In this document: piece by piece, positions 50,469-61,141 of the stretch
Position numbering within the stretch: position 1 is the stretch's first letter
How the letters are laid out: each line of letters starts with the position of its first letter
Translations under genes and position numbers: made by a program
Source: Halobaculum sp. CBA1158
GTDB taxonomy: Archaea > Halobacteriota > Halobacteria > Halobacteriales > Haloferacaceae
Reading direction: 5' to 3'
Length of the DNA stretch: 64,000 nucleotides
Assembly (NCBI RefSeq): GCF_021431925.1
Contig: NZ_CP090371.1
Coordinates: 1,984,001 to 2,048,000 of the forward strand
Notes under the pieces: model-generated
Database searches by the model: none
The model's input: the letters and a program-made list of their open reading frames with translations, nothing else
Told to the model about the DNA's origin: nothing

Positions 50469-50532
50469 TACTGTGTGTCTAAGGGAATTGCATGCAACGC
50501 TAAAATACCGGGACGTGCTGGTACGTATCACG

Positions 50533-50664
50533 ATGACCGAACGAACCATGGCGGACGTCAGTCACACAGCGCCGAACGGGGCCTCCGCGGACCGAGTTTG
50601 GGAACGAGGCGGCGAGAAACCCGAGGCACGAACCGACGGCGGCGACCGCGACGACGACGACTGA
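50533..50664 (+). CDS. Small haloarchaeal protein (43 aa)
   Basis: A 43-residue hydrophilic protein, MTERTMADVSHTAPNGASAD then RVWERGGEKPEARTDGG and an acidic end. The DVSHTAP...RVWERGG pattern looks like a conserved motif of small haloarchaeal proteins. An alternative ATG lies at codon 6. No function is recognised. Support is the motif, the composition and the AT-rich promoter upstream. Confidence 0.55.
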   Translation: MTERTMADVSHTAPNGASADRVWERGGEKPEARTDGGDRDDDD

Positions 50665-50839: not shown

Positions 50840-51871
50840 GTGATAACCGTCGACGGCTTGCGGAAGGTGTACGGCGACTTCGTCGCCGTCCACGGGAGTA
50901 CCTTCGACGTGGATCCGGGGGAGATCTTCGGCGTCGTCGGCCCGAACGGGGCGGGCAAGACGACGACGCTCAAGACGCTGGCGGGGCTGATCGAGCCCAC
51001 CGCCGGCACGGTCGAAGTGGCGGGATCGCCCGCCGGCGACCCGGAGACGCGGACCGCGCTGGGGTTCCTCCCGGAGGAGTCGCCGCTGTACGAGGACATG
51101 ACCGCGCGGAGCTACCTCCGCTTTTTCGCGGACCTGTACGAGGTGCCCCGCGAGGTCGCCGACGAACGCATCGAGACGGCGCTGGACGACCTCGAGCTGG
51201 AGCACCGCGACCGACGGCTGGGGGACGTCTCGAAGGGGATGAAGCGAAAGGTCGCCATCGCGCGCTCGCTGGTCAACGATCCCGACGTGCTGATCTACGA
51301 CGAACCCGCCTCGGGCCTGGACCCCCTGACGACCAACTACGTGTTGGAGTACGTCCGCGCGCTCGCCGACGCCGGGAAGACGGTGCTGTTCTCCGCGCAC
51401 AACCTCTATCACGTGGAGTCGGTGTGCGACCGCGTCGTCATCATGAACGAGGGGAAGATCGTCGCCCGCGGCTCCGTCGAGGAGATCCGCGCCGAACACG
51501 GCGAGACGAGCTACCGCGTGTTCACGACCGTCCCCGTCGAGGGGAGCGACCCGGACGGCGACCGTCACCTGACGGTCGTCGACTCGATGGACGCCGTCGA
51601 GGGGATCCGCGCCGAGGCGGCCGACGCCGGCGGCGAGGTCGCCGACATCCGGACCCGCGAGTCGACCCTCGAGGAGATCTTCCTCGACGTGGCCGACCAG
51701 CCGATGCCCGGGAGCAGACGCGTCGCCCCCGGCGACGACCCGACCGTCGTCGGCGACGCGGCTCGGTCGGACGGGGACGAGCACGGGGATCGCGCCGGCG
51801 ACGACGACGCGGACGCCGACCGGGGTGAACCCCCCCGAGAGGGCGTCGACCCGCCGGAGGCGGGGGAGTGA
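50840..51871 (+). CDS. ABC-2 type exporter, ATP-binding subunit
   Basis: A 343-residue ATPase of the NatA/CcmA type. Walker A is GPNGAGKTT (34-42), the Q-loop lies in LGFLPEES, the signature is degenerate (VSKGMKRKVAIARS), Walker B is VLIYDEPASGLDP and the switch His is in LFSAHNLYHV. The C-terminal 45 residues are an acidic tail. The start is GTG at 50840, with TTTACT 22-27 nt before. Its stop overlaps the next gene's start. It powers the two permeases that follow, likely an exporter of unknown cargo. Confidence 0.92.
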   Translation: MITVDGLRKVYGDFVAVHGSTFDVDPGEIFGVVGPNGAGKTTTLKTLAGLIEPTAGTVEVAGSPAGDPETRTALGFLPEESPLYEDMTARSYLRFFADLYEVPREVADERIETALDDLELEHRDRRLGDVSKGMKRKVAIARSLVNDPDVLIYDEPASGLDPLTTNYVLEYVRALADAGKTVLFSAHNLYHVESVCDRVVIMNEGKIVARGSVEEIRAEHGETSYRVFTTVPVEGSDPDGDRHLTVVDSMDAVEGIRAEAADAGGEVADIRTRESTLEEIFLDVADQPMPGSRRVAPGDDPTVVGDAARSDGDEHGDRAGDDDADADRGEPPREGVDPPEAGE

Positions 51872-53685
51872 TATCGCCGCGTAAGCTCCTGCGCGTCGCC
51901 CGCTGGGAGGTGTCTCGGACGACCGGGACGCTCGACCGGCGGACCGCGGCGCTGGGGGCGGTCGCGCTGCTGTTGACCCTCGGCGTCGCCGCCGGCGGCC
52001 TCCTCGCGGGCGGCGTCGCGCTCGACGAGGACATCTACTCGGTCGCGGTGAGTTCGGAGAGCCCGTACCACGAGCCGGTCGCCCAGTCGACGCCGCTGTC
52101 GGCGTCTCCGCCGGACGCGCCGAACGCGGACGTGTACGTCGTCGACCCCGACCCGACCGACCGGAGCGCGACCGTCACCGCCGCCGACACCCCGAAGGGC
52201 GAGGCGGCGCTGTCGACGTTCCGGTCGGCCGTCGAGGCGCACAACGGCCGTCTCCTGGCGGCCGAGCCGAACCAGTCCGCGGCGTTCCCCGTCGGCGTCA
52301 CGCTCACCTACGTCGAGCGCTCGAGCCAGCGGATCGGCGCGAGCGACGGCGACGTCGCCGGCGCGGGCGACGACGACGGCGGTGCCGGTGGCGGCGACGG
52401 CGACGGCGGCGACGGGAGCGGCGGTGCCGGCAGCGATGCCGGCGGCGACGCGACCGGTGGCTCGGACGGCGGCCTGGGCGTGCCCGACTTCGGCGGCGCG
52501 GCCGGCGGGCTGTTCGGCGGGCAGCCGACGGGGTCGCCCGCGGAGATCTCCCCGCCGTTCCCGTTCGGCTCGCTGGTGCTCGCGTTCGCGTTCCTCGTGC
52601 CGATGAACTTCATCATCCAGGCGTACGGCTCGACGGTGCTGAACGAGCGGATCAACCGCCGGGGCGAACTCCTGCTCGTCGCGCCGCTGTCGCGGACGGA
52701 CATCGTCGCCGGGAAGACGCTGCCGTACGCGGCGGTCGCGCTCCTCGCGACGACGCTCATCGCCCTCGGCGTCGGGGGCGGCGCGCTGTCGGTCGCGGCG
52801 GTGTTCCCCATCGCGCTGGTGTTCCTCGCGTCGACGTTCGTCGGCGCGATGTTCGCGCGGTCGTTCAAGGAGCTCACGTTCGTCACCGTCACCGTCTCGG
52901 TGACGCTGACCACCTACGCGTTCGTGCCGGCGATCTTCTCGACGGTGACGCCGATCGCGCTCATCTCGCCGCTGACGATCGTCGTCCGCGACCTCCAGGG
53001 CGAAGCGGTCGCGCTCGGCGAGTACCTGTTCTCGACGGGACCGTTCTACCTCGTCGCGGGCACGCTGTTCGCGATGGGGATCGGCGTCTACCGCGAGGAG
53101 GACATGTTCACCCAGCGCGCGGTTCCGCTGAAGTTCCTCGACGCGCTGGCGGTCCACCTGCACCGCCCGCGCGACGTGGCGCTGCTCGCGGCGCTGTCGA
53201 TCCCGTTCGTGTTCGTCGCCGAACTGCTCGGGGTCGCGCTGCTGTTCGCGCTCCCCGAGTCGGCCGCGCTGGTCGGGCTGTTCGTCGTCGTCGCCGTCGT
53301 CGAGGAGCTCGCGAAGGGCGTGCCGATCTACGCCGGGTTCTCGCAGTCGCGCTTCGAGCGCGACCTCCCGACGGCGCTGAAGCTCGGAGCGCTCTCGGGC
53401 GCTGGGTTCTTCCTCGCCGAGAAGGCGACCGCCGTCGTCCAACTCGTCGGGCTCGACTCGCTCCCGCTCGGACGGGCGGCGTTCGGCACCGCCGGCGTCG
53501 CCGGCGACGCCGGCCCCCTCCTCGCGCTGGGACTGCTCACGCTCCCGCTCGCGTTGCACGTCGTCACCGCCGCCGTCGCGGCCGTCGGGGCGACGCGGGG
53601 CCGGCGGGCGTGGGGCGGGACCCTCGCGGTCGCGATGGCGATCCACTTCGCCTACGACTTCGCGGTGGTGAGCGCCCTTGGATAA
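51868..53685 (+). CDS. ABC-2 permease fused to a PrsW-like intramembrane protease
   Basis: A 605-residue membrane protein with two parts. The first (1 to about 410) is an ABC-2 permease: TM1 at 25-50, a large extracellular region with a Gly/Asp-rich stretch (about 155-220), then five or six helices. The second (about 435-605) matches the PrsW/CPBP-like protease: Glu479-Glu480-x-x-Lys483 (EELAK), Phe514-x-x-x-Glu518 (FFLAE), His564 and His593-x-x-x-Asp597 (HFAYD), each within a helix. PrsW proteases cut membrane proteins. Start is GTG, overlapping the ATPase stop. The fusion ties export to proteolysis. Confidence 0.85.
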   Translation: MISPRKLLRVARWEVSRTTGTLDRRTAALGAVALLLTLGVAAGGLLAGGVALDEDIYSVAVSSESPYHEPVAQSTPLSASPPDAPNADVYVVDPDPTDRSATVTAADTPKGEAALSTFRSAVEAHNGRLLAAEPNQSAAFPVGVTLTYVERSSQRIGASDGDVAGAGDDDGGAGGGDGDGGDGSGGAGSDAGGDATGGSDGGLGVPDFGGAAGGLFGGQPTGSPAEISPPFPFGSLVLAFAFLVPMNFIIQAYGSTVLNERINRRGELLLVAPLSRTDIVAGKTLPYAAVALLATTLIALGVGGGALSVAAVFPIALVFLASTFVGAMFARSFKELTFVTVTVSVTLTTYAFVPAIFSTVTPIALISPLTIVVRDLQGEAVALGEYLFSTGPFYLVAGTLFAMGIGVYREEDMFTQRAVPLKFLDALAVHLHRPRDVALLAALSIPFVFVAELLGVALLFALPESAALVGLFVVVAVVEELAKGVPIYAGFSQSRFERDLPTALKLGALSGAGFFLAEKATAVVQLVGLDSLPLGRAAFGTAGVAGDAGPLLALGLLTLPLALHVVTAAVAAVGATRGRRAWGGTLAVAMAIHFAYDFAVVSALG

Positions 53686-54934: not shown

Positions 54935-56473
54935 CTACGCGGCGACGAGGTCGACGACGGTCTCCTGCTCGCACACGAGGTTGTACGCGCCCTCGTCGTC
55001 GTTCCAGAGGACCAGGACGTTCTCGACCGAAAGGACCGCGCCGTAGGGTGCCTCCCGGAGGTCGCGATTCAGCACCGACTCCCCCGTGAGCACGAGGTAG
55101 TGCTCCAGTTCCTCGCTGCCGTCGCCGACCTTGAACAGGGGGTTGGCGTCGTCGCCGTCGGCGAGGTCGGCCGAGAGCTTCACGCACAGGAGGTTCACGC
55201 GGTCGGTGACGTGGGCCTCGGACTCGGCCATCCGGTGGTGGCGCTCGGCGCTCGCGGCGACGGGGTGGCGACGCTCGCCGTCCGGTCGGAGGATCGCCCA
55301 CGAGAACTTCACGTCGGTGTTGACGTAGGTGCCGGGCTCCTCGTCGTACGCCCGGGTCGCGGCGTCGTCGAGGGACCGCTGGAACGAGGGGACCGCGAGG
55401 GCCGAGCGTTCCTCGAAGGACCACCCGCGGTCGCTTGGGGCGTCGCCGGGCCACAGCCGCAGGTCGGGCGCGTAGACGCTCACGTCGCCGTCGGGCGGGG
55501 CGACCGCGCGCTCGACGCGGCGCATCCCGGTCGAGGTGTCGAGGTCGGCGGGCGCGAGCAGGAGACACGAGCCGTCGGCCGCGAGCGCGTCGAGGCCCCG
55601 CTCGACGGTCGCCTCGGGGTCGTCCAGTTCCGAGAGGACGTTCCCGAACAGCACGAGGTCGAACGGACCGTCCGCGGCGGGATCGTCGCCGGTGACGTCG
55701 GCGTCGTCGGTCCCCGTGGTGTCGTCGCTCCCATCGGAATCGTCGCCCCCGCCTGCGTCGCCGGCGTCGCCCGAGTCGACGAGTCCGGTCAGGTCGATGT
55801 CTTCGACGCGCTCGCGGTGGATCGTGGTTCGGAAGTTCCGACGGGTGTCCGCGAGCACGTCCGCGAGCACGTCGGCGTTGGCGCTGGGTTCGACGGCGTG
55901 GTAGTCGACGACGGCGTCCTCGGGGAGGTAGTCGTGGAGGCCGAGCGCGGGGCCGCCGGTGCCCGCGCCCACGTCGAGCACGCGGAGCCTGCGGGGGAGC
56001 AGCCCGCGGTCGGCCAGCCGGTCGAGGACGTAGCCGACGGCGGCGTAGAAGTCCGGCAGGTGATACAGGGCGTACGCCAGCGCGGCGTCGGCGTCGTACT
56101 CGACGCGCCGCCCGCGGTAGTAGTCCTCCTTCATGCGGTCGATCGTCTCGCGGAGGGCGTCGCCGGAGTCGCCGTCGTGCCAGTCGAGTCCGTGTCGGTC
56201 GAACAGGAGGTCCTCGACGGTCTCGACGTGCTCGTCGGGGAACGCCGAGGGCGACCACCCCGGCGGGTCGACCGGCTCCTCGTCGACCGGGACGAAGCTG
56301 CCGTCGTCGCGCTCGCGGAGGCCGAGGTCGAACGCCTCCTCACGGAGGGCCGTGCGAACGACGGCCTGGTGGGGCTGACCGGGGAGGTACTCGTACACCT
56401 CGTCGGGGTCGACGGGGCGGACGTTTCGGAGGTACTTCGCCGTGTCGCGCAGGGCCTCGCGGTCGACGCTCAC
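54935..56473 (-). CDS. Rsm22-like ribosomal small-subunit methyltransferase family protein
   Basis: A 512-residue class I methyltransferase. Motif I is [20 protein letters not shown] (about 170-190) and motif II follows in [15 protein letters not shown]. After an Asp-rich insert (about 232-265) comes motif [17 protein letters not shown]-terminal beta domain (about 395-512) resembles the Rsm22 end. Rsm22 acts in mitochondrial ribosome assembly; the archaeal role is presumed. No iron-sulfur Cys cluster is visible, in contrast to eukaryotic Rsm22. GTG at 56473 is chosen ([10 protein letters not shown]); GTG at 56482 is possible. Confidence 0.78.
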
Positions 56474-56557
56474 GGCGACCACCCCGGGGGCGTCGGCGAT
56501 GGAGTCATTGCCGACGGCTACTCAGTCGGCGTGGGTAACGGTTCTGTCTCGGCCGCC

Positions 56558-57385
56558 TCACTCCTCGAAAGTCGGACCGTCGCCGTCCGCGGTCGCGTCG
56601 TCGTCACCGTTAGCCGCGCCGTCGCCGACGCGGGAGTCGCCGTCGACGGCGTCGCGGGCGTCGGCGAACAGCGCGTCGAACTCCTCGCGGTCGGCCTCCG
56701 CCAGCGCCGCCGCGGCGTCGGCGACCGGCCCCGCGCCGTCGAAGGCCTCGCGGATGTCGGCGTACACGCGCGACTCGCCCGCGGCGACCGTGCGAGCCAA
56801 CTCCGCCAGCGGCTCGGAGACGGGCGTGTGGAACCGCTCGTCCACGTCGCCGGCGGCGAGCGCGTACGCCAGGACGGCCGTGTGGGCCCCGGCCTGTACC
56901 TTCGCCATCGCGTCGTCGTGCTCCGCGGCGGTCGTCTCGAACGGCTCGTTGCCGGCGTCGGCGAACCCCTCGCGGACGTGCTCGACGACCGGGCCGACCT
57001 CACCGGGGACGTACGCGATCCGCCCGGGGCCACGCGGCGGCGCGAAGAGCGGGTGGAAACTGGCGTACTCGCCGTCGGCGTGGGTCGCCATCGCGGCGAG
57101 GGGGTCGCCCATGACGCCCGCCACGTCGACGATCGCCCCGTCGGCGGCGTTGTCGGCGTAACGGGCGACCGCGTCGGCGACGACCGGGATCGGGACCGCG
57201 AGGACGACGCAGTCGAACGACTCGTCGGTGTCCAGGGGGACGACGCGGCCGTCGACGACCGCCTCGGCGGCGTCCATGGCCGTCTGCGGGTTCGTGTCCG
57301 CGAGCGCGACCCGGTCGACGACCGGGCGGAGGGTGTGTGCGACCCACCGACCCATCTCCCCCGCGCCGACGACGAGCAACTTCAT
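56558..57385 (-). CDS. tyrA: Prephenate dehydrogenase
   Basis: NAD(P)-dependent oxidative decarboxylation of prephenate to 4-hydroxyphenylpyruvate in tyrosine synthesis. The 275 residues have the Rossmann motif VVGAGEMG (5-12), the acidic ADTNP end of strand 2, the [13 protein letters not shown] block and [20 protein letters not shown] with the active-site His. The C-terminal helical domain is short, then a low-complexity acidic tail (about 245-275). It is 9 kb from chorismate mutase, which makes its substrate. Confidence 0.9.
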
Positions 57386-57463
57386 GCACCCCGCTATCGG
57401 TGTCGCGACCGAAAGGGTATCGGTCCGGGGGGCGACGCGATCGGACGAGTCCGCCCGCCGCCG

Positions 57464-57973
57464 TCACTCCACCGACGCGAGCCGGAACGACTCCGAGGGG
57501 AGGGTGTCGCCGTCGTGGTCCTCGCCGGCGACCAGCCGCATCCGTACCTCCGAACGGGGCACGGGCTCCGCGAACCGTACGCCGACGAGCGTCTCCGCCT
57601 CGACGCTCCGGGCCTCGCCGCGGAAGTCGACCGCCCGGACGGTCACGCGGTCCTCGCCGACGCCGCCCTCGACGACCTCGAAGTGGGCCTCCAACAGCCC
57701 GGGCGCGACCTCCGCGATCTCGGCCCCCTCCGCGACCACTTCGACGGTGTACGTGCGGATCCCGTCGGGAGCACGCTGACAGACGGCGACGACGGCGTCG
57801 GTCGCTTCGTCCGCGTGTTCCTCGTCCGCGTGCTCCTCGTCGCCGTCGTCAGCCGGATCGGCGTCGTCGCCTCCCCCCGCGGGATCAGTCACGCCGCCAT
57901 CCCCCGGGGGCTCCTCGGATCCGTCCGCGTCGGGCTCCCGGAACGCGGCCGCGACGCGCTCGAACAGGCTCAT
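57464..57973 (-). CDS. Conserved haloarchaeal protein, beta-rich domain
   Basis: A 169-residue protein. After a start [15 protein letters not shown] comes a disordered acidic segment (15-60, with an [11 protein letters not shown] repeat). The rest is a beta-rich domain with [44 protein letters not shown] and [14 protein letters not shown]. No motif allows a function. ATG at 57973; single gene. Confidence 0.65.
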
Positions 57974-58108
57974 ACCTCGTATCACGGCGGCCGTCGACAA
58001 AGCCGCGTCGCCGCCGGTGTCCTCGGTGTCGCCTGCGGCGTCGGGGCGCGCGAGGCGGTCGCCCCGGGTCACCCCGTCCGGGCGGTCTCCGGGATCGCGT
58101 CGACGCGG

Positions 58109-59299
58109 TCACTCGACCACCAGCTCCACCGGGAACTCCGTGAGGTTCTCGTAGCCGTCCTCGGTGACGACGACGATGTCCTCGATGCGGACGCCGCCGA
58201 CGTCGGGGTCGTACAGGCCCGGCTCGACGGTGATCACGTGGCCGGGCTCCAGTTCCCCGCCGCGGGGGTTGAGCCCGGGCTGTTCGTGCACGTCGAGGCC
58301 GACGCCGTGGCCCGTCGAGTGGATGAACCCCGTCTCCGTGTCGGGATCGGAGCGAAGCGTCGGGTGGCCCGCGTCCTCGTACACCTCGCAGGCGGCCGCG
58401 TGCACGTCCGCCCCGGTCGCACCGGGCTCGACGGCCGCGAGCGCCGCCGAAAGCGCCGTCTCGGTCAGGTCGAACCACTCCCGGACGGTCCCGTCCGGCT
58501 CGCCCTTGGAGAACGTCCGGGTCATGTCGGAGTGGTACTTGCTCGACTTCTCCCGGGGGAAGATGTCGACGATGATCGGCTCGCCGGCCGCCAGCGGGCC
58601 GCTTCCGCGGTCGTGGGGGTCGGCCGCGTCCGCGCCGCAGGCGACGATCGTCTCGTCGAGCGCGCAGCCGTGTCGCAGCAGCGTCACCTCTATCTCCTCG
58701 CTCACGCGCTCGCTGGTGAGCGGCGTCTCCTCGCCGTCGACATCGTGTACGAGCGTGCCGTCGTCGGCCACGTCGGCATCGGCGATCAGCGCCTCCGCGG
58801 CCGCCATCGCCGCCTCGTTGGCCGCCTGGGCCCGCCGGACGGCGTCGACCTCCTCGTCGGTCTTGACCGCCCGCAGCGTCTCGACGGTGTCGTCGCGGTC
58901 CACGTCGACGGCGACGCCCGCCTCGCGCAGGCCGTCGGCGACGCCGACCGGGAACCGCTCGGGGACGAGCGCCGACTCGACGCCGAGGTCAGCGAGGAAG
59001 TCGGCGTACACCGACGCCTTTGCGCTCGCCTCGTCGGCCTCCGCGGCGCGCTCGGCGTAGTCGTACGCCGAGAGGCGCACCACGGTGTCGGCGTGCGACT
59101 CGGTCTTCGCGCGGCCGTACTCCAGTCCGGAGACGAGCACCGCCAGTTCGTCGCCGGTGTAGGCGGTGAGAAACGGGTCAGGGGCGTCGAATCCCGAGAG
59201 GTACAGCTGATCGGAGTCGGCGTTGTCGGCCTCGATGCAGTAGGCGTCGACCCCAGTCGCGTCGAGGCGATCGTCGAGTGCCGAGCGGCGTCGCGTCAT
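58109..59299 (-). CDS. M24 metallopeptidase (Xaa-Pro dipeptidase type)
   Basis: A 396-residue aminopeptidase P/prolidase-like enzyme. The N-terminal creatinase-like domain (1 to about 135) precedes the pita-bread domain with all five metal ligands: [22 protein letters not shown] (two Asp), STGHGVG (His), TVEPGLYD (Glu) and RIEDIVVV (Glu). It removes residues before proline in the cytoplasm. ATG at 59299 ([12 protein letters not shown]) is chosen; a GTG 6 codons earlier is possible. Active site is complete. Confidence 0.9.
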
Positions 59300-59381
59300 G
59301 GTCTCCGGTGCGTCCACGGGCGGGATAGGCGTTTTCGTCGCGGCCGCCCGTCGACGCCGGTCTCGATCCCCCCTCGAGGCG

Positions 59382-59567
59382 TCAGTTCGTCCGTTGCTTC
59401 GGGTCGTCGGACCACCGTCGGGCGACTTTCCCCTTCATCGCGTACTCCAGCGCGTGCCAGACCCGCCCCTGTCGCTTCAGTCGTTCGACCGCCTCGACGC
59501 GCTCCTCCGGCACCGATCCGCGTTCCAACAGCTCCGCGAGGAGTGTCTCGGCGCTATCACGATTCAT
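59382..59567 (-). CDS. Small basic helical protein
   Basis: A 61-residue protein, [21 protein letters not shown] then [22 protein letters not shown] and a basic tail ([17 protein letters not shown]). The pattern is two helices with aromatic residues, unusual in having a basic end in a haloarchaeon. ATG at 59567 is preferred to one 16 codons upstream. No function is recognised. Confidence 0.62.
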
Positions 59568-59713
59568 CTGGTGATACGTCTTCCTCGGGGGTGGATACCG
59601 GTGTTGCCAAACCATTCCGGTGTGATGAGCGCCACCTAGATAGTCAATACCTAGCGCCTACGGGGCTTATACTCTCGATTTGGAGGTCAGAGACTGCGAA
59701 GCTGATCAGGCCG

Positions 59714-59734
59714 GAGTCGGTCGAATTCCGACTC
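59714..59734. repeat. Inverted repeat in the gap before EPSP synthase
   Basis: GAGTCGG-TCGAATT-CCGACTC is a perfect 7-bp stem in the 251-nt gap 59568-59818. A GGCTTATACTC box (59663-59673) lies 40 nt upstream. A short untranslated RNA or a long aroA leader is possible, but nothing else supports it. No gene is seen in the gap. Confidence 0.4.
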
Positions 59735-59818
59735 GGAGGTGGCAATCGACTGCCCGAGGGTCGCCGGAACCGTCGCCGCGTCCGGTACACACTTGCCGCG
59801 GCGAGCGCACCTCGGGAC

Positions 59819-61141
59819 ATGGACGCACACGTCTCGCCGTCGCGAGTCGCCGGACGCGCACGCGCGCCGCCGTCGAAGAGCTACACGCACAGGGCGATCC
59901 TCGCGGCCGGGTACGGCGGGGGAACGACCGTCGCGGACCCGCTGGACTCGGCGGACCCGCGGGCGACCGGCCGGGCCATCGAGGCGTTCGGCGGCGCTGT
60001 GTCGTGGATCGACGACGGGACCGGGGGCGCGAGCGCGGTCGAGGTCGAGGGGTTCGGCGGTCGCCCCGACACCCCCGACGACGTGATCGACTGCGCGAAC
60101 TCGGGGACGACGATGCGGCTCGTCACAGCGGCCGCCGGACTGGCGGACGGACTCGCCGTGCTCACCGGCGACGACTCGCTACGCTCGCGCCCGCAGGGAC
60201 CGCTCCTCGAGGCCGTCGAGTCGCTGGGGGGTCGCGCGGAGTCGACGCGGCACAACGGGCAGGCCCCGCTGGTCGTCGGCGACGCGATGGACGGCGGCGG
60301 GGTCGCCATCCCTGGCGACGTGTCCTCGCAGTTCGTCACCGCCCTCCTGATGGCCGGCGCGGTCACCGACGAGGGCGTCGAGGTCGACCTCGAGACGGAA
60401 CTCAAGTCCGCGCCGTACGTCGAGATCACCCGCGAGGTGCTCGCGGACTTCGGCGTCGACACCGAGCACACGGAGACGGGCTTTCGCGTTCCCGGCGGGC
60501 AGGCGTACGAGGCCGACGAGTACGCCGTCCCGGGCGACTTCTCGTCGATGTCGTACCTGCTGGCGGCGGGCGCGGTCGCGGACGGCGACGGAACCCGCGA
60601 CCGCGACAGCGACGGCGTCGTCGTCGAGGGCGCGCGGCCGAGCGCGCAGGGCGACGCCGCCATCGTCGACGTGCTCGACCGGATGGGCGCGGCGATCGAC
60701 TGGGACCGAGAGGCCGGGGAGATCGAGGTCCGCGGCGGCGACCTCTCCGGCGTCGACGTCGACGTGGGCGACACGCCCGACCTCCTCCCCACCATCGCCG
60801 TCCTCGGCGCGGTCGCCGGCGGCGAGACGCGGATCGTCAACGCCGAGCACGTCCGGTACAAGGAGACCGACCGCGTGGCCGCGATGGCCGAGTCGTTGGA
60901 GGCCATGGGCGCAAGCGTGACCGAGGAACCCGACTCGCTGACGGTCCACGGCGACGACTCGGACCTCGTGGGCGCGACGGTCCAGGGTCGCGGCGACCAC
61001 CGACTCGTGATGGCGCTGACGGTCGCCGGCCTCGTCGCCGAGGGCGAGACGACGGTCACGGGCGCTGAGCACGTCGACGTGTCGTTCCCCGGCTTCTTCG
61101 AGACGATGGCGGACCTGGGCGCGGACGTGTCCGTGGAGTGA
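59819..61141 (+). CDS. aroA: 3-phosphoshikimate 1-carboxyvinyltransferase (EPSP synthase)
   Basis: Transfers the enolpyruvyl group of PEP to shikimate-3-phosphate. The 440 residues contain [11 protein letters not shown] (Lys20, Ser21, Arg25), [24 protein letters not shown], the catalytic Asp in [11 protein letters not shown], and HVRYKETDR. Two inverse alpha/beta domains of normal length. Start ATG at 59819 ([17 protein letters not shown]). An Asp/Gly-rich loop (about 257-268) is an acidic insertion. The product feeds chorismate synthase, whose gene is outside the window. Confidence 0.95.

Follow-up and report, generated by a model that had tools for sequence, protein, structure and literature searches.

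We analyzed a 64,000-nt stretch of the genome of Halobaculum sp. CBA1158 (NZ_CP090371.1, 1,984,001-2,048,000), hereafter the window, and positions below are window coordinates unless another record is named. Our subject is a three-gene module in which the middle gene encodes an ATP-binding cassette (ABC) permease fused to a PrsW-like intramembrane-protease domain (Table 1). The fused gene is free of internal stops and sits tightly between an ABC ATPase gene and a second permease gene. Its GTG start and the stop of the ATPase gene overlap by 4 bp (51868-51871). At the other end, the second permease gene has its first start, a TTG, at 53678, which gives an overlap of 8 bp with the stop of the fused gene. 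The initial annotation, which was made from the sequence alone, had placed one frame joining an ABC-2 permease to a PrsW-like domain at this position, with overlapping start and stop codons on both sides. This description holds, since the frame is open, the Pfam matches of both parts lie over their cut-offs and the fusion is conserved among relatives.

The ATPase carries the expected motifs, i.e., Walker A (GPNGAGKTTT), a signature-like SKGMKRK and Walker B (LIYDEP), and its best NCBIfam match is the DrrA subfamily (E 4e-69, under the cut-off of that model). The permease half of the fused protein begins with a cytoplasmic helix and has six membrane helices, the first two of which are separated by a large loop; in this loop, the acidic, glycine-rich stretch varies in length among aligned homologues. 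The full-length model has a predicted local distance difference test (pLDDT) score of 80 and a predicted template modelling score (pTM) of 0.73. In comparisons by VIA-align, residues 3-416 resemble ABCA4 (Z 16.9, root-mean-square deviation (rmsd) 3.5, 226 residues aligned), NosFY (Z 16.6, rmsd 3.4, 204 aligned) and ABCG5/8 (Z 14.8, rmsd 4.3, 229 aligned). Thus, the permease half is predicted to have the six-helix fold of a type V exporter, with its ABC ATPase encoded alongside. The second ABC-2 permease is probably the partner half of a heterodimeric exporter.

Table 1. Features of the module in window coordinates. Residue numbers refer to the fused protein, and fractions count the 166 distinct fused sequences.
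Feature	Position	Strand	Basis
ABC ATPase, nucleotide-binding subunit, 343 aa	50840..51871	+	ABC_tran E 5e-30
Fused permease-protease gene, 605 aa	51868..53685	+	Open frame; among 166 distinct fused sequences aligned
Type V (ABC-2) permease half, residues 1-416	51868..53115	+	ABC2_membrane_2 28.1 bits, over cut-off; model fold
Acidic, glycine-rich stretch in extracytoplasmic loop, residues 141-229	52288..52554	+	pLDDT under 50; alignment
PrsW-like intramembrane-protease domain, residues 435-605	53170..53682	+	PF13367 match, profile comparison, fold
Motif 1, EELAK 479-483 (E479, E480, K483), consensus EExxK	53302..53316	+	166/166 at all three
Motif 2, GFFLAEK 513-519, consensus GFxxxEK	53404..53424	+	E518, K519 166/166; F514 165/166
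Motif 3, His564	53557..53559	+	166/166
Motif 4, HFAYD 593-597, consensus HxxY[N/D]	53644..53658	+	H593 166/166; Y596 163/166
Second ABC-2 permease, 391 aa	53678..54853	+	ABC2_membrane_3 E 4e-17

Family and active site of the protease domain

When the C-terminal 187 residues are scanned alone, they match the Pfam PrsW-protease family PF13367 with 31.3 bits (cut-off 23.5, E 1.9e-7) over profile positions 12-176 of 196. A six-frame PF13367 search of the genome finds the same domain with 30.6 bits, and many, though not all, homologues pass the cut-off in such searches. Full-length Pfam scans of 34 family members never reported the PrsW domain, and because of this it is easily overlooked. Profile-profile comparison (hhalign) with stand-alone archaeal PrsW sequences gives a probability of 94 and an E value of 9.6e-8; the alignment spans the whole domain and brings the motifs into register. 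By contrast, the same comparison with 24 haloarchaeal CPBP sequences gives E 0.08 and a probability of 0.7. We reject a CPBP identity because the profiles favor PrsW, the first motif is EExxK and not of the EExxxR type, and PF02517 (CPBP/Rce1) is not matched in either the full-length or the domain-only scans. A sequence search of solved structures with the family profiles found nothing. Conservation, profile comparison and modelling thus agree on the assignment to PrsW that had been made initially.

Seven residues, E479, E480, K483, E518, K519, H564 and H593, are invariant in all 166 distinct sequences, the one from the window included. The initial annotation had listed four PrsW-type motifs, of which EELAK, FFLAE and His564 lie where it placed them and are conserved. 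The fourth, HFAYD, needs correction: it is really HxxY[N/D], and position 597 is N in 147 sequences, D in 18 and A in one. There are nine near-invariant positions in the 171-residue domain, and these include all six residues that had been named beforehand (hypergeometric P = 2.6e-9). Seven charged or histidine residues that stay fixed in membrane helices across such divergence point to catalysis.

The window protein shares the four active-site motifs and the Pfam and whole-domain profile matches with PrsW (PF13367, MEROPS M82), and it differs in its architecture. Most PrsW proteins have eight membrane helices (PMC3482391) and no permease, whereas here the model places about five helices in residues 435-604, which follow a permease, and N is the usual last residue of motif 4. 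The missing helices may lie beyond the Pfam core. A typical stand-alone PrsW is also encoded elsewhere in the genome (C1:850428-850994, 156 bits), the fused form being additional, and stand-alone PrsW genes are widespread in haloarchaea, including genomes that have no fused module.

The protease domain is modelled with pLDDT mostly of 86-98, except for the loop region at 520-550, and when modelled alone it reaches pLDDT 90 and pTM 0.85. The motifs each lie mid-helix, in four consecutive, confidently modelled transmembrane helices (464-492, 500-529, 550-575 and 579-604). The assignment had been expected to fail if EELAK and HFAYD were not conserved or if the motif residues were scattered in a model. 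Instead, the former are kept as EExxK and HxxY[N/D], and the residues lie in these consecutive helices. The positively charged loops at 493-499 and 574-579 would agree with a linker behind the permease that lies in the cytoplasm and with a C-terminus on the extracytoplasmic side.

With Foldseek, neither the full-length nor the domain model gave a match at E 0.001 or better, and the structural matches come from VIA-align. The top match of the protease domain is APH-1 of gamma-secretase (Z 11.2, rmsd 4.5, 162 aligned; the first three rows are all APH-1 chains), followed by a chain of the BOS complex (Z 10.1, rmsd 4.0, 146 aligned). Rce1, a catalytic member of the superfamily, is also among the matches (4cad; Z 5.2, rmsd 3.3, 111 aligned). 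These Z values are moderate for a helical bundle and are to be weighed jointly with the motifs. In the model, the fold matches the APH-1/Rce1 superfamily (PrsW/CPBP/APH-1). APH-1 and the BOS-complex chain are not known to have protease activity. Since these best solved matches are non-proteolytic members of the superfamily, the domain could be an inactive, APH-1-like scaffold that stabilizes or gates the transporter. In a scaffold, however, one would expect that some of the motif residues had been lost, but all seven are unchanged in 166 sequences down to 24% overall identity, and we regard this explanation as improbable.

Distribution and neighborhood of the fusion

Homologues of the fused gene occur in all 11 genomes of the genus (one as a decayed remnant), in 125 of the 148 genomes of the family (116 of the 129 of good quality) and in 204 of 393 genomes sampled from the phylum; the genome searches covered Halobacteriota. 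Every intact homologue examined is a full-length fusion, even at 24-30% identity, and the overall span is 24-84%. Separate and fused forms had been proposed as something to look for across archaea. Separate permease or protease forms of the family were not seen, and all long-frame hits examined hold both parts. The fusion is found in haloarchaea, Methanosarcinales, Methanomicrobiales, Methanoperedens, Syntrophoarchaeum and further families of the phylum. Among the best 80 loci of a contig scan, on which the carrier names rest, are those of Methanolobus, Methanococcoides, Methanomethylovorans, ANME-2c, Methanoperedens, Syntrophoarchaeum, Methanoregula and Methanoculleus. The plasmid search yielded only Haladaptatus salinisoli, where the record labels the protein 'ABC transporter permease subunit'. 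In a quick tree, Methanomicrobiales and Methanosarcinales each form a single group, in line with a mostly vertical descent.

Long frames that are spurious are common in high-GC halophile DNA, such as one of 2013 aa at 55100-61141, and a Pfam scan of the full-length protein misses PrsW. The extension could in principle be a gene-calling artefact, i.e., a C-terminal run-on, with motifs that arose by chance. We reject this and give it next to no weight, because the proteins share 24-84% identity over the whole length across many lineages, methanogens included, the catalytic residues are invariant and the models are confident.

Some good-quality haloarchaeal genomes have no fused gene even when all candidates are scored, so it is not universally essential. 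One locus of the same genus (L096; G010:C2:67400-77600) has a decayed module. What persists there is fragments of the ATPase, a part of the fused protein (residues 354-435) and the last part of the second permease. Because remnants of all three genes remain together, the module was lost as a unit.

The second permease lies directly downstream of the fused gene in 92 of the 97 loci with flanks, and an ATPase gene of the family is present in 77 of them; in methanogens it is usually adjacent and divergent. In all 25 haloarchaeal loci, the ATPase, the fused gene and the second permease are together and co-directional, and beyond these three genes nothing is conserved nearby in most. Small peptide genes in the vicinity had also been suggested as something to seek in relatives, and this expectation was not borne out in haloarchaea, where no conserved membrane-peptide gene was found.

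The module could also be an ordinary exporter of small molecules, lipids or ions, of the DrrAB, NatAB or NosFY types (drug, Na+ or metal). The protease would then serve only to mature or degrade either the transporter itself or some accessory protein. The ATPase is nearest to drug-exporter and GldA-type profiles, and the permease fold is nearest to NosFY and the ABCA lipid transporters. However, ordinary exporters of this type work without a protease, while here the domain is kept in every intact member, and outside Methanosarcinaceae no second cleavable partner is linked. We consider this explanation rather unlikely.

Several neighbors are restricted to particular lineages. In eight of ten genus members compared (L005-L012), a hydrophilic open reading frame (ORF) of 64-81 aa lies upstream of the ATPase. 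Its ends are conserved (MxQQxTFxSY ... TFGCVEYxPxE), and it is followed, before the ATPase start, by a strongly conserved GTTCTCAC ... CGATAGsCGCGsCGACG stretch. The window does not have the ORF in that form (about 50473-50664). We do not regard it as a membrane peptide, since no membrane helix is evident in it, Pfam gives no match and, among the loci compared, it was seen only in this genus.

In Methanosarcinaceae, the operon continues with a secreted, C-terminally anchored protein of about 600 aa with Ig-like/DUF11/BatD/TRAP_beta-like domains and then two small membrane proteins (e.g., L107:10931-13535). Conservation of the anchor of the large protein is 52.9% compared with 42.8% for the ectodomain, a modest rise. 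This protein is a possible substrate or partner of the module, lineage-specific and only a lead, and the two small membrane proteins belong to the same set of candidates. A gene for an MscS-type mechanosensitive channel lies between the ATPase and the fused gene, inside the divergent promoter region, at 16 loci (L079, L080, L107, L114, L117 and others), with MATE-like and MarR-like genes upstream. A protein of about 230 aa with a lipobox-like start (LVSGC) is encoded near the module in eight loci (L134 and others, about 1 kb upstream of the fused gene), and it could be a donor of leader peptides.

Permease-protease fusions are already known as a kind. The NCBIfam model NF041647, 'ABC transporter permease subunit/CPBP intramembrane protease', has the same order, with the ABC-2 permease at the N-terminus and a protease from the CPBP/PrsW/APH-1 superfamily at the C-terminus. 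The protease of NF041647 is of the CPBP (Rce1-like) type, whereas that of the window protein is PrsW-like. We reject membership of this family, since a comparison of the fused protein with this model gives nothing at E 1 or better and the cut-off was reached in none of 30 related archaeal genomes. The permease part of NF041647 resembles the second, unfused permease of the window (35.6 bits, cut-off 435). Because it is nearer to the unfused than to the fused permease, sequence comparison suggests that the two fusions arose in separate, independent events. The PrsW version described here is thus a new variant. We found no paper on a PrsW-ABC fusion in the literature searched, though absence there is no proof of novelty. 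A review lists the PrsW-like HVO_0408 of Haloferax volcanii as having no known function and does not mention ABC fusions (PMC9263693). The Haloferax hvo_3001/3002 motility mutants were considered and set aside, as they appear to involve a different ABC system.

Proposed function and related systems

We hypothesize that the module is a heterodimeric type V ABC exporter with an ATPase pair and two different permease halves, one of which bears a PrsW-class intramembrane protease at its C-terminus. The protease would cut a transmembrane segment within the bilayer, and the ATP-driven exporter in the same chain would then lift the hydrophobic product from the membrane. Candidate substrates are the remnant of a signal peptide or lipoprotein leader, a C-terminal anchor, or a dedicated peptide. 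By analogy with the systems discussed below, we assign a probability of about 0.5 to the reading that a membrane segment is cleaved and its product extracted or exported. Within it, we infer the proteolytic activity, the heterodimer, the hand-over from protease to transporter, and the nature of the substrate and the direction of its movement. A bolder form is more tentative, and we would put it at clearly below even odds: one polypeptide would cut and extract with direct hand-over, serving Halobacteriota in general to clear or release membrane fragments such as leader remnants and the anchors of sorting signals, and possibly secreted signalling peptides. Since the module occurs widely, is lost patchily and has no dedicated peptide gene, we consider a private peptide less likely than a substrate that is general or encoded at a distance.

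The initial annotation had suggested cleavage and release or export of a membrane peptide, which is plausible, and had compared the logic of the fusion with that of the peptidase-containing exporters (PCATs). The comparison with PCATs stands in so far as both have protease and ABC exporter in one protein. The C39 peptidase of PCATs is a soluble, cytoplasmic cysteine protease, and their exporter is of another type. Pfam and NCBIfam scans find no C39 peptidase domain in the window protein. In addition, because no conserved membrane-peptide gene lies beside the haloarchaeal module, the data do not favor a PCAT-like exporter with its own peptide over a substrate that is general or distantly encoded. 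A closer parallel, by analogy, is with the separate pairs of intramembrane protease and type V or Ecs-like ABC transporter of Bacillota.

In Staphylococcus aureus, lipoprotein leaders become secreted linear peptides only if both Eep and EcsAB are present (PMC7157817). In Bacillus subtilis, intramembrane proteolysis by RasP requires EcsAB, and a 'cleaning function' that would rid the membrane of peptides has been put forward (PMC7478892, PMC2996298). Like the archaeal module, EcsAB/PptAB and RasP/Eep combine an ABC transporter with an intramembrane protease, both being required for peptide processing and export or for proteolysis. However, they are encoded by separate genes, the protease is a site-2 zinc protease and the permeases are arranged differently, while the archaeal module has one fused chain and a second permease. 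In the TMcin pathway, a site-2 protease (S2P) trims a peptide embedded in the membrane, and a type V ABC transporter is proposed to extract it (preprint PMC13252029). TmcP-TmcBC is thus similar in pairing an intramembrane protease with a type V exporter on a membrane-embedded peptide. It differs in that its proteins are separate, the protease is of the S2P class, the permease is a single chain of 12 helices and the precursor gene lies in the cluster.

Alternatively, the ABC part could sense or gate, in a BceAB-like manner, and PrsW could make a regulated, site-1-like cut in a membrane-bound regulator, the outcome being signalling and not export. PrsW of B. subtilis is the site-1 protease that cuts the anti-sigma factor RsiW, and other PrsW proteins are fused to signalling domains or toxins (PMC9263693, PMC3482391). 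No peptide gene adjoins the module, and MarR-like regulator genes lie near it in Methanosarcinaceae. On the other hand, the 25 haloarchaeal loci have no conserved membrane-bound regulator beside the module, the tight linkage to the ATPase and both permeases points to genuine transport, and the EcsAB-type precedents couple a protease with export. We regard this alternative as unlikely, though as one to be kept in mind.

Four points weigh against cleavage followed by extraction. In the comparison of 25 haloarchaeal loci and of genus members, no conserved membrane-peptide gene or substrate adjoins the module. The precedents use site-2 (zinc) proteases, not PrsW, and come from Bacillota. Among solved folds, the nearest is that of APH-1, a scaffold that is not proteolytic, and hence the fold by itself is no proof of catalysis. 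Lastly, both cleavage and transport by the module are themselves inferred.

In Bacillota, ABC transporters of the Ecs/Ppt type and intramembrane proteases are mutually dependent, for which two explanations compete, removal of inhibitory peptides and export of the cleaved product. If our proposal is true, a single chain that combines the two activities in an ancient archaeal family would demonstrate a physical coupling. The protease domain is widespread yet missed by routine annotation, in which full-length Pfam scans report the permease only. The single-chain form makes the link between protease and transporter testable by point mutants in one protein, and the carriers, haloarchaea and methanogens, belong to groups with genetically tractable species.

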